Assembly (NCBI GenBank): GCA_030529625.1
Contig: JAUMWN010000005.1
Coordinates: forward strand, 1-61,447
DNA from: Coriobacteriales bacterium
GTDB lineage: Bacteria; Actinomycetota; Coriobacteriia; Coriobacteriales; Atopobiaceae
Direction: 5' to 3'
DNA length: 61,447 nucleotides
In this document: piece after piece, positions 956 through 11,166 of the stretch
Layout of the letters: every line of letters begins with the position of its first letter
Numbering within the stretch: position 1 is the stretch's first letter
The notes under the pieces: generated by a model
The model's database searches: none
Seen by the model: the letters and a program-made list of their open reading frames with translations, nothing else
What the model was told of the DNA's origin: nothing
Made by a program: the position numbers and the translations under genes

Positions 956-1999
956 ATGAGCACCAATCACCTCATCACCGGAAGCGGATCCCTGTTGGAC
1001 GAGGAGGGCCGGCTGAGGGAGGCCGGATATGCGCTCCAGCCTCCGTTTGAGTACTCCCATGAGCGCATCGCCGCACATCCCATGCGCATAAAGGATTGGG
1101 ACTATTATCTGGTTCAGGACGCAGAGTACGCCGTGGCCCTCACCTTTTCGGACTTGGGCTACATTGGGCTTGTCTCGGCCAGCGTGATGCACTTCCCCAC
1201 TCGCACGTTTAAGACCACGAGCGAGCTTGTGCTCATGCCCCTTGGTAGCATGGGCCTGCCCACGAGCTCGAACGAGGGAGACGTGGTATGGTCCAACAAA
1301 CGCTGCCGCGTGTCGTTTGCGCACGTGCCTGGCGGGCGTCGGCTCTCGTTCTTTATGGCACGCTTTGACAAGGACCAGGATCTGGACGTGGAGCTGTATC
1401 TTGACCAGGTGCCACAGGACTCAATGGTTATTTGCACCCCATGGCCCAATAATCCCAAAGCGTTCTACTACAACCAAAAGATCCTGGGCATGCGTGCACG
1501 AGGCGGCTTTAGGCGTGGTGCCGAGTTCCATGAGTTCTGTGCGGACGAGGCGCTGGGGCTGCTTGACTGGGGTCGTGGCGTGTGGACCTACGACAACGTG
1601 TGGTACTGGGCAGCGGCCCAGGGGCATGTGGACGGGCACGTGGTGGCGCTCAACCTGGGATATGGCTTTGGCGACACGACCGCCGCAAGCGAGAACATGG
1701 CCTTTGTGGATGGCGTCGCTCATAAGCTGGGACGTGTTGACTTTGGCATTCCATGCTCAGACGGCGAGGGCTACGCATACCTGGACCCCTGGCACGTCAC
1801 CGACGACGAGGGCCGCCTGGACCTGCGGTTTGACCCCACCATCGATCGTGTGGACACCATAAACGTGGTGGGTGTCGTGCAGAGCGACCAGCATCAGGTG
1901 TTTGGCGCGCTCACGGGTACTATCGTGCTGGATGACGGTACCGCGTTGCACGTGGAAGGCCTGCCAGCCTCGGCCGAGCACATACACAACCGCTACTAG
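956..1999 (+). CDS. DUF2804 family protein
   Basis: Uncharacterised cytoplasmic protein of 347 residues, the usual length for DUF2804 proteins. Family-like features are the GLLDWGRGVWTYDNVWYWA block around residues 200-220 and a C-terminal run of beta-strand-rich sequence with WHVTDDEGRLDLRFDP. It has no signal peptide and no membrane segment. The start is fixed by a strong AAGGAGG 6 nt before the ATG. A TATACT -10-like box at 912-917 could drive it. The next gene follows 58 nt downstream on the same strand. No enzymatic role can be assigned from sequence. Confidence 0.8.
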   Translation: MSTNHLITGSGSLLDEEGRLREAGYALQPPFEYSHERIAAHPMRIKDWDYYLVQDAEYAVALTFSDLGYIGLVSASVMHFPTRTFKTTSELVLMPLGSMGLPTSSNEGDVVWSNKRCRVSFAHVPGGRRLSFFMARFDKDQDLDVELYLDQVPQDSMVICTPWPNNPKAFYYNQKILGMRARGGFRRGAEFHEFCADEALGLLDWGRGVWTYDNVWYWAAAQGHVDGHVVALNLGYGFGDTTAASENMAFVDGVAHKLGRVDFGIPCSDGEGYAYLDPWHVTDDEGRLDLRFDPTIDRVDTINVVGVVQSDQHQVFGALTGTIVLDDGTALHVEGLPASAEHIHNRY

Positions 2000-3576: not shown

Positions 3577-5340
3577 ATGCGCGAGGGACTCATTTACACG
3601 AACGACAATTGCATTGGGTGCAATAAGTGCGTGCGCATTTGCAGCTCGTTTGGCGCAAGCGTGTCCAAGCAAGGGCCGGATAAGACAGCCATACGAATAA
3701 ACAGCGATCGATGCATCGTATGTGGGGCGTGTGTGGACGTATGTGGCCATGAGGCGCGGCAGTATTTGGATGACACGGAGCGGTTCTTCTGTGACCTTGC
3801 CAACGGCGAGCCCATATCCGTTCTCGTCGCGCCGGCATTTGCCGCGAAGTACCCCAACAGCTATCGCAATATGCTGGGGACCCTGCGGCGCATGGGAGTA
3901 AAACAGGTGATTCCCGTCTCGCTTGGAGCCGACATCTGTACCTGGGCATACATCAAGTGCATGCAGGACAACGCGGAATCGTCACTCATCTCGACCTCGT
4001 GTCCTGTGGTCGTCTCGTACATCGAGCATTGGATGCCTAGCCTTATTTCCCGTCTTATGCCCGTAAAGAGCCCGCTCATGTGCATCGCCACATATTGCAG
4101 GGAAGAGCTGGGCATTACCGACAGGCTTGCATTTGTGGGTCCCTGCATCGCAAAGTCGCTGGAAACGCAGCGCTATCCTGACCTCGTACAGTACAACGTC
4201 ACGTTTCCCAAGCTCATCGAACGTTTGGAGAACGAGGAGCGCGGCGACGTCAGCGACTTCGACGACATCCCGTACGGCTTGGGATCGTACTATCCCGCCC
4301 CAGGTGGCCTTGCCGACAACGTGCGCTGGCTGTTGGGGGACGACGTCTCGGTGCGTGTGGTGTCGGGAAAGACCTACCTGTACGAGCGTTTTGAGCGCGG
4401 CAGACACGGAATTTTCTCGCAGGGGCTTCCCTACGCGCTGGTCGACGCACTCAACTGCACTGAAGGCTGCATTGAGGGAACGGCACGGCTCCGGTACGAG
4501 AGTGACGAGGTAGGCCTTGCGCACATCCAACGCATTCGCTCCGGGAGCAAGAGCACAGACCCTGACTCGCCATGGAATCCCAACCTCACTCCGCAAGAGC
4601 GCCTAGAACGCCTCAATGCCCAGTTTGCCAATCTGAGCTTGGACTCCTACAGGGCTCACTTCGTGGATCAAGGCGATCTGTGTGCAGTTCAGGTGCCCAG
4701 CGAGGAGGAACTGCAGGAGGTCTTTCGCACGTTGCACAAGACCGACGAGCCCTCACAACAAATCAACTGCTCGGCCTGCGGGTACGAGACGTGCATGGAA
4801 ATGGCGGTGGCCATACACAATGGGTTCAACAGCCGCTACAACTGCGTGTACTTCGAGAAGGAGGAGTCAATACGCCTCACGCGCATGTCCTACACAGACC
4901 AGCTCACCGGCGTGCTCAACCGCAACGCGCTCGAGTCCATTGGCACCGAACTCTATGGTAAGGGCCACTCCCTCGCCCTTGTCGTAACCGACGTGAACGG
5001 GCTCAAGCGGGAGAACGACACGAAAGGCCATGGGGCAGGTGACCGTATGATCGTGTCTACGGCGCGTGCGTTGGCAAACTGCTTTGGGTGTGATCGCGTG
5101 TTTAGGACGGGCGGCGACGAGTTCCTGGCAATCCTGCAGGACCACGCCAAGAACGAGGTCGAGGAAGGCATCGACGAGGTTAAGGCGCACCTCGCCACAT
5201 TGGACATAAGCGCATCGATGGGCATGGCGTATGAGGAAGCGTTCTCGGGAGCGTTCGACCCCCTGCTCAAGCTGGCTGACTCCCGCATGTACGAGGACAA
5301 GGCGCGTTACTACAAGGAGCACGGCAGCGCCCGTGGATAG
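3577..5340 (+). CDS. [FeFe]-hydrogenase-like iron-sulfur sensor fused to a GGDEF diguanylate cyclase
   Basis: 587 residues with four parts. (1) Two ferredoxin-type 4Fe-4S sites, C12-C15-C18-C22 and C46-C49-C52-C56. (2) A hydrogenase large-subunit-like domain (about 80-340) with the four H-cluster-type cysteines: C142 in TSCPVV, C190 in GPCIAK, and C294/C298 in NCTEGCIEG. (3) An FeS domain with C398-x2-C401-x4-C406-x16-C423. (4) A GGDEF domain (about 440-585) with DQLTGVLNR, TDVNGLKREND and intact RTGGDEF (512-516). The upstream part resembles HsfB-type sensory hydrogenase homologues. The output would be cyclic di-GMP made from GTP. The usual RxxD inhibitory site before GGDEF is absent (FGCD instead). 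It is a soluble protein with no membrane segment. Confidence 0.85.
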   Translation: MREGLIYTNDNCIGCNKCVRICSSFGASVSKQGPDKTAIRINSDRCIVCGACVDVCGHEARQYLDDTERFFCDLANGEPISVLVAPAFAAKYPNSYRNMLGTLRRMGVKQVIPVSLGADICTWAYIKCMQDNAESSLISTSCPVVVSYIEHWMPSLISRLMPVKSPLMCIATYCREELGITDRLAFVGPCIAKSLETQRYPDLVQYNVTFPKLIERLENEERGDVSDFDDIPYGLGSYYPAPGGLADNVRWLLGDDVSVRVVSGKTYLYERFERGRHGIFSQGLPYALVDALNCTEGCIEGTARLRYESDEVGLAHIQRIRSGSKSTDPDSPWNPNLTPQERLERLNAQFANLSLDSYRAHFVDQGDLCAVQVPSEEELQEVFRTLHKTDEPSQQINCSACGYETCMEMAVAIHNGFNSRYNCVYFEKEESIRLTRMSYTDQLTGVLNRNALESIGTELYGKGHSLALVVTDVNGLKRENDTKGHGAGDRMIVSTARALANCFGCDRVFRTGGDEFLAILQDHAKNEVEEGIDEVKAHLATLDISASMGMAYEEAFSGAFDPLLKLADSRMYEDKARYYKEHGSARG

Positions 5341-5418: not shown

Positions 5419-5847
5419 TCATCGCGCCGCAGGTTTGTAGATTGCGCAGTTGTTGGGGGTCTCGTACAGGTCCACCTGCGACACGGGCAGGCCATCGCTG
5501 GTGAGCCGATCGCACACGTAGCGGGCGAGGTTCTCGGCTGTGGTGCGAAACGGCAGGACGGTGAGCGAGAAGCCCTCTTGCTTCAGGCAGTCCATGGTCT
5601 GTTGGGACAGCGAGCCCTCCTCCACGAGGAAGGTGTGGTCAAGCTCCTTGGCAATGGCACGAACCGTGCGCTTGAACACGCCAAAGTCAATCACCATGTC
5701 GCGCATGGTTCCTTCTGCCTGCAACTGCTCCTGCTCAACGTACACCACCATGCGCCAGCGGTGGCCATGGAGGTTCTCGCATTTGCCGTAGTAGTCGGTG
5801 AGGAAGTGCGCGCTGTCAAAGCTCGCCTCCGTCTTGAGCCCGAACAT
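5419..5847 (-). CDS. queD: 6-carboxytetrahydropterin synthase (QueD / PTPS family)
   Basis: Tunnel-fold enzyme acting on the GTP cyclohydrolase product 7,8-dihydroneopterin triphosphate. QueD makes 6-carboxytetrahydropterin for queuosine. Zinc ligands are the His in DSAHFL and both His of LHGH. The catalytic Cys lies in GKCENLHGH, and the conserved ETPNN closes the protein. The residue after the Cys is Glu, and folate-branch PTPS-III enzymes are known to use Glu at this site. The start at 5847 is chosen because GGAGGA lies 5 nt upstream. An in-frame ATG at 5880 lacks a site. It is the last gene of the folate operon, 39 nt after folC. Confidence 0.88.
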   Translation of the reverse strand: MFGLKTEASFDSAHFLTDYYGKCENLHGHRWRMVVYVEQEQLQAEGTMRDMVIDFGVFKRTVRAIAKELDHTFLVEEGSLSQQTMDCLKQEGFSLTVLPFRTTAENLARYVCDRLTSDGLPVSQVDLYETPNNCAIYKPAAR

Positions 5848-5886
5848 ATCTCCTCCAAATCGTTGGGTGGAAAGACGCACTTGGCA

Positions 5887-7296
5887 TCATCTATACAGGG
5901 CGGCAACCTCACCGGCCGTGGTGATGGAGCCGCAGGCCACGAAGGGTTCGTGCTCGAGCAGCCCAACCGCCTCCTCCAGGCGCTCGCACACCGCCTTGGG
6001 CTCCACGCCATGGGCCCTAAACGCCTGGGCGAGCGAATGTGCCGAGCATGCGCGTGCCGACGACGTTCGGGTAACGACGACATGGGGAAACGCAGGTGCG
6101 AGCAGGGACACGATGCCATCCACGTCCTTGTCGGCGAGCACGGCACAGAGCAGGGTGGGACGCCGCTCCACGTTAGGCTCCATGGCATCTATTGCCTCAA
6201 GGAACACTCCCACCGACTGCGGATTGTGGCAGGCGTCCACAAGACCTAATGGGTTGTCTCGCACGACGTCGAACCTGCCGGGCGTGGGACACGAGCGAAT
6301 CGACTCGACGAGCTGTACCGCGTCAAGCGCATGGCCTACATACGATTCGGCCAATGCGACCGCACAGGCAATGTTTGCCGCTTGGTAGGCGGGCTTGATG
6401 GCACGAAGGCTTACGTAGGTGGCGTGCGGTGTGCGCACGGTAAGCTCCAGGGGCGTACCTAGGCTCGCGGGCCGAGCGGTGATGGCAAACGTCGCACACG
6501 CAAGGTCGTCATGAGTTCGCGGTGCGCCAGGATGCACGATCGAGCGTACGTCCTGCTCGTGGGTCGCGCGCACGAGCAACGGCCGCACGTCCTGCTCACG
6601 CGCCTGGTCCAAGAACACGTCCTCCACCGATGGCGGCGTGCAGGTACCCACACCGAGCACGCAGGTCCTGCCGTTGCGAATCACGGCGGCCTTCTCGTGA
6701 GCGATCTGCTCGAGCGTGTCTCCCAGAATGCGGGTATGGTCAAGGCCGATGCCCGTGACCGCGACGGAGCGTATGGACTTTGCGGCGCTCGTGGCGTCCC
6801 ACCTGCCGCCCATACCCACCTCAAGTACCGCGACGTCTATGCCGCGCAACGCATACACCACACATGCGGCTACCGTGAGCGTGTCGAACTCGGTTACGTC
6901 GTAGGGCGTAAGGCCCTGCTGCGCTCGTCGACGGTTGATGCGCTCCCCCGCCTCGCATGCCGCGGCGACCCCCAGTGCAAAGTCCTCGCGGCTGACGGGC
7001 GATCCGCCAATTTCCATGCGCTCGGTGTAGTCGATGAGCTGAGGGCTGGTGTAGAGACCCACGCGCCTGCCCTCGCCGGTAAGTATGCGAGCCGTGTAGC
7101 GTGCCGTGGAGGTCTTGCCATTGGTGCCAGCTATCTGCACGCAGTCATAGCAGAGGTCGGGGTCGCCAAGCTCGGCAAGCATCTCCTCCACCGTCTCCAG
7201 CAACGGACAGATGCCCAATACGACAAGACCATTTACGTACGCAAGAGCTTCGTCGTAGGTGAGCCGGGGTATCTCAAAGGGTATGGTGTAGGCCAT
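5887..7296 (-). CDS. folC: bifunctional folylpolyglutamate synthase / dihydrofolate synthase
   Basis: Mur-ligase-family enzyme that adds glutamate to dihydropteroate and to folates, using ATP. The 469-residue product has the P-loop GTNGKT at residues 57-62, the downstream FDTLTVAA and VLEVGMGGRWDAT blocks, and LGLDHT-like GIGLDHTRILGDTLEQIA. These are typical of FolC. The start at 7296 (MAYTIPFEIPRL) has AAAGGA upstream. The open frame extends further back to 7410, into the folE 3' end, but that part is not family-like. It lies between folE and queD, so folate synthesis and polyglutamylation are co-expressed. Confidence 0.93.
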   Translation of the reverse strand: MAYTIPFEIPRLTYDEALAYVNGLVVLGICPLLETVEEMLAELGDPDLCYDCVQIAGTNGKTSTARYTARILTGEGRRVGLYTSPQLIDYTERMEIGGSPVSREDFALGVAAACEAGERINRRRAQQGLTPYDVTEFDTLTVAACVVYALRGIDVAVLEVGMGGRWDATSAAKSIRSVAVTGIGLDHTRILGDTLEQIAHEKAAVIRNGRTCVLGVGTCTPPSVEDVFLDQAREQDVRPLLVRATHEQDVRSIVHPGAPRTHDDLACATFAITARPASLGTPLELTVRTPHATYVSLRAIKPAYQAANIACAVALAESYVGHALDAVQLVESIRSCPTPGRFDVVRDNPLGLVDACHNPQSVGVFLEAIDAMEPNVERRPTLLCAVLADKDVDGIVSLLAPAFPHVVVTRTSSARACSAHSLAQAFRAHGVEPKAVCERLEEAVGLLEHEPFVACGSITTAGEVAALYR

Positions 7297-7348
7297 ACTG
7301 GGTCCTTTCAAAGCATGAGAAGCACGCAGGTTATTTCCTGGCGCTTCC

Positions 7349-7936
7349 TTAGAGCCCAATGAGTCGCAGCGCCTCCTCGCGCGCCTTGAGGTCGGTCTCG
7401 AACCAGCCACGCACTGCCGAGGTGACGGTCTTTGAGCCTGCGGCGCGCACGCCTCGCATGTTCATGCATGAGTGCTCGGCCTCAAGTACCACCAGCACGC
7501 CGTGCGGCTTGAGTCGGTCTTGCATCGCGTCGGCAATCTGCTGGGTAAGGCGCTCCTGAAGTTGCGGTCGCTGTGCGTAGCCGCGCACGCACCGGGCTAT
7601 CTTGGAAAGCCCGGTGATCCTCCCGTTCTGCGGTAGGTAGCACACGTGGGCGAGGCCGGTAAACGGCAACAGGTGGTGCTCGCACATGGAGGCGAAGGGG
7701 ATGTCCTTCACAATTACCATGTCCTCGTTTCCTGGCTCGTTAAACTTCTTGAGCAGATGTTGCGACGGGTCCTCCTGCATGCCGCCAAAGATCTCCTGGC
7801 AGGCGCGCGCCACTCGGTCGGGCGTGTCCAGCAGGCCCTCGCGGTTTGGGTCGTCCCCAATGGCACTCAACAATTCACGAACCGCACGAACGACGCGGTC
7901 GTAGTCCAGATTTCCGTAGTCGAGTTGCTCGCTCAT
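7349..7936 (-). CDS. folE: GTP cyclohydrolase I
   Basis: Converts GTP to 7,8-dihydroneopterin triphosphate, the first pterin intermediate for folate and queuosine. The 195-residue protein shows the zinc/catalytic signature [12 protein letters not shown], a C-terminal Cys in HSCMNMRGV as the other zinc ligand, and [15 protein letters not shown]. This is the zinc-dependent type IA enzyme, not FolE2. The ATG overlaps the folD stop by 4 nt (ATGA) and GAGGAGG lies 10 nt upstream. The longer frame starting at 7966 is rejected. Confidence 0.95.
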
Positions 7937-8811
7937 GCGTCGTCTGCCTCCTCGTCGCCGGCACACAGTCGCTCGGCCGCCTCAATAACATGCTTTGCCA
8001 GGATGGCGGTTGTCACTGAGCCCACTCCGCCCGGTACGGGAGTGATGGCGTCCACGATGGGCTCTACCTTCTCGAATACCACGTCGCCGCACAGCCGCTG
8101 CGCTCGCTCGTCCCAGTTAATGCCCACGTCCAAGACCACCTGACCGGGACGTACCGCATCATCACCCAAGACTCCTGCATGCCCGGCAGCCACCACCAAC
8201 ACGTCTGCCTCACGGGCGCGGCGCGAGAGGTCACGGGTGTGCGTGTGACACACCGTCACCGTTGCATTGCGCGCCATAAGCATTGCCGCGACAGGTCTGC
8301 CGATGACCAGGGAACGTCCCACGACCACGACGTCAGCACCGTCTAGCGCAATGCCGTAGTGATCGAGTAGCGCGATGCATGCCTCGGCCGTGCAGGGAGG
8401 AAAACCCACCGGTTGGTTGGCGAAGACGCCATAGAGCGAAGCCGCCGTTGAGCAGTCCACATCCTTAGCGGTATCCAATGCGGCACAGGCGGCCTCCTCA
8501 TCCAGGTGTTTGGGTAACGGTCGGAACATGAGGCAACCGTGAATTGACGGGTTGGCATTCACCTGGGTTATCACATCCAACAGCTCACCCTGGATGCAGT
8601 CTGCTTCCAAGACGAATGACTTGGTGCGTATGCCCACCGCCGCACAGCGCTTGAGAGCGGCACGCTCGTATGTCAGGTCGTCCTCCCGCTCACCCACGCG
8701 CACGATGGCAAGCGTTGGGGTTATGCCACGCTCCTCAAGCGATCGTGCGCGTCCGCACAGTTCTTGCGTGAGGGCCTTCGCTACGGGAAGTCCTTTGAGC
8801 AATACGGCCAT
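7933..8811 (-). CDS. folD: bifunctional methylene-THF dehydrogenase / methenyl-THF cyclohydrolase
   Basis: Interconverts 5,10-methylene-, methenyl- and 10-formyl-tetrahydrofolate using NAD(P). The 292-residue protein has the TYERAALKR segment carrying the Tyr and catalytic Lys six residues apart. [12 protein letters not shown] stands in place of the classical QLPLP. The Rossmann stretch [15 protein letters not shown] and the C-terminal [11 protein letters not shown] are canonical. The altered N-terminal motifs match the clostridial-type FolD branch. It lies 3 nt after fchA and overlaps folE, so it is translationally coupled. Confidence 0.93.
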
Positions 8812-8814
8812 AGG

Positions 8815-9447
8815 TCACGACACCCCCCTCACGCGCTTACTCACCTGTGCCGCGCACCGCTCGGCACGCTCGACGTAGGTGGCAAGCATCTGGTCCACCT
8901 CAGCCTCTAGTGTCTGGGCAAACTCGCGGTCTGCAAGCGTCTTGGTGTTTACGTATACGTTGAGGCTGGCGGCTTCCAGTGCCGCACGGCACAGGTAAAG
9001 GCCACACCCTACGTCCGAGAGGAGCATGCGCGAGCCCTTCTGGCCCATCTCTTCGAGCAGGTCTATGGCCTCGCACACCTGCCGCATCATCTCGAGAGGA
9101 GCTGCGCAGGCACGCTTGGTGGCCTCCTCGAGCAGGGCGGCACGCCTTGGGTCATCCCTGGGGATGGCATATGCCTGAGAGAGGGGCAAAAACGCCTCGG
9201 CATCCTCGCGTATGAGCTGGAGCAGGCGGCTGCGCACATCCTTGGCCTGCTCAAGCATGCGCTGGATGTCGGGCTCCACACTTGCATAGGCCTTCTTGCC
9301 CGTGGTGTAGTTGCCCACCATGGAGCACAGCGCCACGCCCAGCGCACCAGCCAGAGCCGCAGCTCCCCCACCTCCAGGCACAGGTTCCTTGGCAGCGAGC
9401 ACGTTCACGAAGTCGGGAAACGTGCCGCGCATCATAGTGTCAATCAT
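8815..9447 (-). CDS. fchA: methenyltetrahydrofolate cyclohydrolase / formimino-THF cyclodeaminase family protein
   Basis: All-helical FTCD_C-family enzyme of 210 residues. It probably hydrolyses methenyl-THF to 10-formyl-THF. The diagnostic N-terminal EPVPGGGGAAALAGALG and SMVGNYT motifs are intact, and SDVGCGLYLCRAALEAA is near the C-terminus. It overlaps in function with FolD's cyclohydrolase half and with histidine-degradation FtcD, but the placement between fhs and folD favours the C1 pathway role. The start at 9447 has GAGAGG 6 nt upstream. Upstream in-frame ATGs at 9465 and 9486 are less likely. Confidence 0.85.
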   Translation of the reverse strand: MIDTMMRGTFPDFVNVLAAKEPVPGGGGAAALAGALGVALCSMVGNYTTGKKAYASVEPDIQRMLEQAKDVRSRLLQLIREDAEAFLPLSQAYAIPRDDPRRAALLEEATKRACAAPLEMMRQVCEAIDLLEEMGQKGSRMLLSDVGCGLYLCRAALEAASLNVYVNTKTLADREFAQTLEAEVDQMLATYVERAERCAAQVSKRVRGVS

Positions 9448-9498
9448 TCGCATCCTCTCTTGCATAGGGCGAACACGTGACTGCATACTGCCGTGCTG

Positions 9499-11166
9499 CT
9501 AGAACAGCCCCACGATGCGCCCGTCCTCGGCAACATCGATCTTCTCGGCAGCAGGCACCTTGGGAAGACCGGGCATGGTCATGATGTCGCCTGTGAGGGC
9601 AACCACGAAGCCCGCACCGGCGGCTACGCGCAGGTTGCGAACCGTAATGCGGAATCCGTCTGGAGCACCCAGCTTGGTCTGGTCGTCGCTAAACGAGTAC
9701 TGCGTCTTTGCCACGCAGATGGGCAGCCCGCCAAAGCCCAGCTCCTCCAACTGTGCCAACTGCGTCCTGGCCGGACCCACCAGGTCCACGCCGTCCGCGT
9801 GATAGACGCGCGTGGCGATGGCGTTGAGCTTGTCCTCGATGCTCGCATCGAGCTCGTAGGAAAAGCGCAACGTGGACGCCTGGTCGCACAGGCGCACGAC
9901 CTCGTTGGCAAGGTCTATGCCACCGGCAGATCCCTTTGCCCACACCTGGGAGATTGCCACGTTCACGCCGAGTGCGTGGCAGGCCTCCTCCACCAGCGAG
10001 AGCTCTTCGGCGGTATCGGTGGGAAACGCGTTGACTGCCACGACGCAGGGGAGGCCGTACACCTGGGTGAGGTTGCGCACGTGACGCTCTAGGTTGGGCA
10101 TGCCCGCCCTGAGCGCCTCAAGGTTTGGCTTGCCGAGGTCAGCCTTGGCAACGCCTCCGTTGTATTTGAGCGCGCGTACGGTGGCAACCAGCACCACGGC
10201 CGAGGGGGCCAGGCCGGTGGCTCGACACTTGATGTCCAGGAACTTCTCGGCACCCAGGTCGGCACCGAATCCAGCCTCGGTGACCACGTAGTCTGCCATC
10301 TTCATGGCCGTGGTGGTGGCCATAACGGAGTTGCATCCATGCGCGATGTTCGCAAACGGCCCGCCGTGCACAAACGCGGGATTGTTCTCCAGCGTCTGCA
10401 CCAGGTTTGGCTTGATGGCATCCTTGAGCAGCGCCGTCATGGCACCCTCGGCATGGATGTGCGCCACGGTGACGGGCTTGCGATCGTAGGTATAGGCGAT
10501 TACCATGCGTGCTAGGCGTGCCTTGAGGTCCATGAGGTCGCTGGCAAGGCAGAATGCCGCCATCACCTCCGATGCCACGGTGATGTCGAACCCGTCCTGG
10601 CGCGGCATGCCGTCTGCCACGCCGCCCAAACCGTCCACCACGTTGCGTAGCTGACGGTCGTTCATGTCTACGCAGCGCTTCCATACGACGCGCCTGGGGT
10701 CTATGCCCAGATCGTTGCCCTGCTTTATGTGGTTGTCCAGCATGGCGGCGCACAGGTTGTTGGCCGCGCCAATGGCATGGAAGTCGCCGGTAAAGTGCAG
10801 GTTGATGTCCTCCATGGGGACAACCTGTGCGTAGCCGCCTCCAGCGGCGCCGCCCTTTATGCCAAACACGGGTCCCAGGCTTGGCTCGCGCAGACAAAGC
10901 ATGGTTTGCCTGCCCGTGCGGTTGAGTGCGTCGGCAAGACCCACCGAGGTGGTGGTCTTGCCCTCGCCCGCCGGAGTGGGGTTGATGGCGGTTACCAATA
11001 CGAGCTTTGCCTTGCTGGGTGCCTCTCGCAGGGAGTTGATGTCGACCTTAGCCTTTGTTCGGCCATAGTACTCCAGCTGGTCCTCCGAAAGACCCGCCTT
11101 TGCGGCGACCTGAGCTATGGGGAGGAGGTTTGCCTCCTGCGCTATCTGGATGTCTGACTTACACAC
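9499..11166 (-). CDS. fhs: formate-tetrahydrofolate ligase
   Basis: ATP-dependent formation of 10-formyl-THF from formate and THF, the entry step of the methyl branch. It can run backwards to make ATP in anaerobes. The 555-residue protein, standard for Fhs, has the P-loop-like [17 protein letters not shown]-type segment (here [13 protein letters not shown]) and the conserved [24 protein letters not shown]. The start codon is GTG at 11166 with GGAAGGA 7 nt upstream. It is the first gene of fhs-fchA-folD-folE-folC-queD. The 126-nt upstream spacer should hold the promoter, but no convincing -35/-10 pair was seen. Confidence 0.96.

Follow-up and report, generated by a model that had tools for sequence, protein, structure and literature searches.

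Domain layout of the fusion gene

The stretch of DNA analyzed here, 61,447 nucleotides from a Coriobacteriales bacterium (the window), encodes a protein, termed P0001, in which ferredoxin-type iron-sulfur motifs, a hydrogenase-like H-domain, a further FeS motif and a GGDEF domain follow one another in a single chain (Table 1). An earlier note on this sequence had described a 587-residue reading frame with two 4Fe-4S sites, an FeS motif and a GGDEF domain, all of which translation and Pfam bore out, with Fer4-type matches around aa 7-60 and the FeS-motif cysteines at 398/401/406/423. PAS domains were not matched by Pfam in P0001 or in the scanned relatives, including ten fusions outside the P0001 clade (P0001 and its full-length GGDEF-fusion relatives; 19 tree rows). 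The nearest hydrogenase model in NCBIfam was FeFe_hydrog_B1 at 119 bits, under the cut-off of 450; thus no named hydrogenase family claims P0001. Low dN/dS values of about 0.08-0.2 were found for both halves of the P0001-type gene, with many of the dS values near saturation. These ratios, the cysteines invariant in 50 relatives and the recurrence of the fusion in other genomes indicate that the observed architecture is not due to chance. Elsewhere in the window, a gene run of folate/C1 appearance was read from the sequence at 5419-11166 on the minus strand (QueD-like, FolC, FolE, FolD, cyclodeaminase and formate-THF ligase).

Table 1. Features of the P0001 gene, in window coordinates.
Feature	Position	Strand	Basis
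Whole gene, hydrogenase-like sensor / predicted diguanylate cyclase	3577..5340	+	single 587-aa ORF by translation
Two ferredoxin-type 4Fe-4S motifs, C12,15,18,22 and C46,49,52,56	3595..3756	+	Pfam, alignments
Fe_hyd_lg_C H-domain, aa 80-301, with C142, C190, C294, C298 and K193	3814..4479	+	Pfam E 1.1e-24, profile alignment
C-terminal FeS motif C-x2-C-x4-C-x16-C, aa 395-424	4759..4848	+	Pfam PF04060 E 1.7e-7
Short helical linker from FeS motif to GGDEF	4846..4890	+	structure model, spacing comparison
GGDEF domain, aa 439-576	4891..5304	+	Pfam E 1e-18
GGDEF active-site motif, aa 512-516; FGCD at 503-506 upstream replaces the RxxD I-site	5110..5124	+	translation, alignment

Predicted hydrogenase fold and putative H-cluster pocket

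Structure prediction, as proposed in the earlier note, gave an AlphaFold2 model (50-row alignment; pLDDT 87.5, pTM 0.73) that matches [FeFe]-hydrogenases: its first 367 residues can be laid over CbA5H and CpI with Z of 33-35 and an rmsd of 3.0-3.2 over about 345 residues. The Pfam match and this model superposition place P0001 in the [FeFe]-hydrogenase superfamily by its predicted H-domain fold. The assignment of C142, C190, C294 and C298 as H-cluster-type cysteines also held, as these residues correspond in profile alignment to CpI C300/355/499/503 and, together with the eight N-terminal FeS cysteines, are invariant both among the 50 relatives and in an alignment of all sensor regions. Further pocket residues are equally conserved, including (i) the equivalents of CpI K358 and P354 (K193 and P189), invariant in the alignment of all sensor regions; and (ii) those of A230 and P231 (A85 and P86), invariant in the 50-row alignment and in 27 carriers. 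Invariance of the FeS-motif cysteines is taken from the 50-row alignment, since rows of the all-sensor-region alignment were chosen by presence of this motif. Nar1 retains a PCxxK motif as well, and K193 is therefore no proof of a [2Fe] site.

The proton-transfer residues of group A presented a different picture: CpI C299 is replaced by S141 and S319 by M161, while the E279/E282 segment has no counterpart. The C299 position holds Ser, Ala, Thr or Pro across the sensor family, and that of S319 is Met within the P0001 clade, except for Leu in two members. Beside the H-site, the clade differs from its relatives in having mostly Ser rather than Pro at 299 and Gly (G188) rather than Ser at 353. C169 is nearly invariant in the PAS-less sensor family and is Ala in all PAS-type proteins. 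Because the group A proton-path residues that were checked are lost, efficient hydrogenase activity is improbable for P0001; similar losses have been described for groups C and D (PMC8163306). The fold and the N-terminal electron-relay motifs would suit a protein that acts mainly as a hydrogenase catalyst and whose regulatory tail is incidental, but the missing proton path, the A3 and B hydrogenase genes already present in the host and the shuffling of the module only among signaling outputs render this reading highly improbable.

Distribution and exchange of output domains

The earlier note had called for a search for Fe_hyd_lg_C plus GGDEF architectures, and the combination was found to recur in genomes of the same Atopobiaceae genus and on eight Clostridia-labeled contigs. 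Within the genus, the full-length fusion was detected in 10 other genomes at 63-67% identity and as a fragment ending at a contig edge in an eleventh, while four genomes were without it; one contig, represented twice in the data set (L007 and L040), is from an Atopobiaceae bacterium of sheep jejunum. The Clostridia-labeled contigs (L041-L048), mostly from gut and rumen MAGs, carry the fusion at 48-59% identity. Elsewhere in Lachnospiraceae/Clostridia the PAS-less sensor is fused to MCP, to HisKA-HATPase-REC-Hpt, to GGDEF with an extension (L049-L051) or to GGDEF-EAL. This extension amounts to about 100 residues beyond the GGDEF domain, a part that in L049 has no Pfam match. A quick tree nested the P0001 clade (support 100) among Lachnospiraceae sensors, with MCP as the most frequent output on the deeper branches. 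Its occurrence in an Atopobiaceae genus suggests that the fusion was transferred between phyla, in either direction. The tree also suggests that the two GGDEF-only groups (the P0001 clade and L049-L051) may have arisen separately; a single origin of all GGDEF-only fusions was not rejected by topology test (p-AU 0.25).

No conserved gene neighborhood of the fusion was found beyond an upstream DUF2804 gene shared by the window (956-1999) and L043 (6941-7966) at 43% identity. Among kinase-type copies, the sensor appears to be tied to cyclic di-GMP by a second route too, as in Lachnospiraceae XBB2008 (L081:7608-8945) the sensor gene shares a 4-base overlap with a REC-GGDEF gene, and on another contig (L082:5044-6207) it is preceded by a GGDEF gene at a distance of 30 bases. 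Two further copies were of unusual form: the MCP-type copy of Roseburia hominis An869 (L065/L128) is interrupted by an in-frame TGA, and a divergent GGDEF-EAL fusion of 861 aa (L130, G122), with GGVDF in place of GGDEF, occurs in a genome that also has a P0001-clade fusion.

Cyclase motifs and coupling

The cyclase motifs of P0001 are complete (GGDEF at 512-516 and DVNGLKREND), and both GGDEF and D-x-(N/D)-G-L-K-x-x-N-D are intact in every member of its clade. The loss of the RxxD inhibitory site reported in the earlier note was confirmed and extends throughout the clade, while the site is kept in L049-L051. With the I-site gone, the GGDEF domain could be pictured as a binding or allosteric module that makes no cyclic di-GMP; however, the clade-wide integrity of the motifs and the purifying selection on the GGDEF half make this improbable. 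Spacing between sensor and output is fixed: the DxLT aspartate lies 18 residues past the final FeS cysteine in both the P0001 clade and L049-L051, and the phospho-His lies 34 residues past that cysteine in 32/34 of the kinase-type copies. MCP, kinase, GGDEF-EAL and GGDEF outputs usually signal via helical dimers. The FeS motif may accordingly lead directly into a helix that drives the output dimer.

Host genome context

The host genome encodes HydF and HydG together with an A3-type HydA, a short HydS-like protein whose gene adjoins the A3 operon, and a group B hydrogenase. The two maturases (HydG at 845 bits, HydF at 543 bits) are encoded on one contig, and 15/16 genomes of the genus scored above the HydF cut-off. 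An active cyclic di-GMP network in the host is suggested by its more than 20 EAL matches. Neither flagellin nor PilZ gave a match in this genome, which is about 90% complete, and a scan for the c-di-GMP-I riboswitch returned no match in the host or in its controls. The A3-type HydA (L001:1273-3027) has TSCSPGW at motif L1, with Ser in place of CpI ligand C300, and the same contig holds a GGDEF-containing frame of 770 aa close to both the A3 operon and the short HydS-like gene (L035, G000:C138, 14587-15072, and L003).

HydF co-occurrence and the nature of the signal

The association of the sensors with the H-cluster maturase HydF was examined in 391 Clostridia genomes, of which 18 carried the PAS-less sensor family, 37 the PAS-type only and 336 neither; the two types were split by match strength (gap from E 1e-89 to 1e-60), a division chosen after the scores had been seen. 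HydF was present in 11/18 PAS-less and 34/37 PAS-type carriers, compared with 216/336 (64%) genomes with neither. Thus, with relatedness uncorrected, the PAS-type sensors were enriched with HydF (p 0.0004), the PAS-less family was not (p 0.8), and the two rates differed from each other (Fisher p 0.0095). Further PAS-less carriers had a HydF match in 14 of 27-28 cases (one of them a contig-edge fragment), bringing the pooled comparison to 25/45 versus 34/37 (p 0.0004). Named isolates were among the PAS-less carriers without HydF over the cut-off (the genomes of L076 and L081).

As the family does not track HydF while the PAS-type sensors do, a serious rival to H2 sensing is an H-domain that holds a [4Fe-4S] cluster only, with no [2Fe] subcluster, in the manner of Nar1/NARF, and that senses redox, O2 or another ligand with the same coupling to GGDEF. 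The absence of the known proton-path residues would fit such a protein as well, and we regard it as a realistic, if somewhat less probable, explanation. Several observations stand against it: (i) the pocket (A85, P86, P189, K193 and the four cysteines) is equally invariant in HydF-positive and HydF-negative carriers; (ii) XBB2008, in which HydF was not found, still encodes a normal-looking group B hydrogenase with all H-cluster cysteines (L243:8189-9703); (iii) relatives in groups C and D bind an H-cluster although their pockets are altered (PMC8163306, PMC10055695); and (iv) the host of the window has both HydF and HydG. The group B gene renders the HydF absence in XBB2008 hard to interpret, and in about 2.33 of the 3.5 Mb of this genome no HydG-like or HydE-like match was detected. 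Given this isolate, the many MAGs and the uncorrected relatedness, the missing HydF association is not proof of an absent H-cluster. A broader proposal extends the [4Fe-4S] reading to the whole family, in which the PAS-less module would serve gut anaerobes widely as a plug-in sensor, a maturase-independent [4Fe-4S] redox or gas sensor exchanged among chemotaxis, kinase, cyclase and phosphodiesterase outputs and directly controlling cyclic di-GMP in an Atopobiaceae lineage with no detected flagellin gene; this we consider less likely than not. The H2 signal proposed in the earlier note therefore stands on less secure ground than was implied, as many genomes of the family have no detectable HydF, although the host itself is positive for HydF and HydG. 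The same result makes the identity of these proteins as H2 sensors a testable question.

A model for P0001

Our first choice is that P0001 senses H2 through an H-cluster, with [4Fe-4S] redox sensing a close second. In this model, to which we assign a probability of about 0.48, P0001 would be a soluble one-component protein in which H2, or the redox state of the H-cluster, switches cyclic di-GMP synthesis. Its sensor, a PAS-less [FeFe]-hydrogenase-like module, would take up the N-terminal two-thirds of the chain and the diguanylate cyclase the C-terminal third. HydEFG of the host would load the H-cluster; H2 binding or a change in H-cluster redox state would reshape the H-domain together with the C-terminal FeS domain; and the change would pass along the short helix of fixed length to the GGDEF dimer, where synthesis would be switched. 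With the I-site lost, this switch would presumably be free of product feedback. The model builds on the architecture, fold match, ligand conservation, exchangeable outputs, linker spacing and host HydF and HydG, all observed here; for P0001, we infer cofactor loading, dimerization, the H2 signal and its sign, and cyclase activity. A precedent for the conformational step is that H2 alters the secondary structure of group D HydS, while the C-terminal cluster stays unreduced (PMC13104023). Counter to the H2 reading are the family's co-occurrence with HydF, which does not exceed background, and the lack of counterparts to CpI C299, S319, E279 and E282; the fusion gene also has no conserved neighbors. 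For sensory hydrogenases of this kind, H2 sensing is itself proposed in the literature without proof.

Comparison with known systems

Sensory [FeFe] hydrogenases raise the question of how, or whether, an H2 signal reaches an output, and the characterized group D enzyme has no known partner. P0001 joins sensor and enzymatic output in one PAS-less chain of 587 aa, such that signal transfer could be read as cyclic di-GMP production. If the model is correct, the H2/redox economy of the rumen would be linked to biofilm-type signaling.

HydDB divides the relevant [FeFe] classes into C1 (histidine kinase-linked), C2 (chemotactic MCP-linked) and C3 (phosphatase), with C1 and C2 as putative sensory hydrogenases (PMC5037454); a 2022 study of acetogens dropped its own C2 predictions as not validated (PMC9431212). 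H2 sensing via kinase or MCP is proposed for C1/C2, and the relatives of the P0001 module that bear MCP or HisKA-REC-Hpt have C1/C2-like outputs, whereas the output of P0001 is GGDEF. The group C3/HsfB-type protein of Ruminococcus albus 7 (RUMAL_RS17375; PMC6776011; L123) resembles P0001 in its F-domain, H-domain, FeS motif and proposed H2 sensing. It differs in the PAS domain after the FeS motif, which marks C3/HsfB and is absent from P0001, and in its separate SpoIIE phosphatase gene, with about 26% identity between the two proteins; C3/PAS-type sensors, which track with HydF, also have for the most part Cys at position 299 and Ser at position 497. Group D HydS of Thermoanaerobacter mathranii (PMC8163306, PMC13104023) shares with the P0001 family the absence of PAS, Leu at 497 and a non-Cys residue at 299. 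Its Ser at 353 is common to most of the family, but the P0001 clade has Gly. In contrast to P0001, TamHydS is not fused to an output domain; its gene is next to one for a kinase-like ATPase, and a bifurcating hydrogenase is encoded downstream. The only diguanylate cyclase-linked class in HydDB is the putative [NiFe] group 2c, which has the same proposed H2-to-cyclic di-GMP logic in an unrelated enzyme class of other fold and cofactor (PMC5037454). A literature search for [FeFe] or Fe-only hydrogenases with GGDEF or diguanylate cyclase returned no description of such a fusion among the papers listed. The sensor module, however, is not unique to this fusion and belongs to a widespread PAS-less family also found on MCPs and hybrid kinases. 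Overall, we rate the GGDEF output as new for sensory [FeFe]-hydrogenase-like proteins, and the kind of sensor itself as already known.
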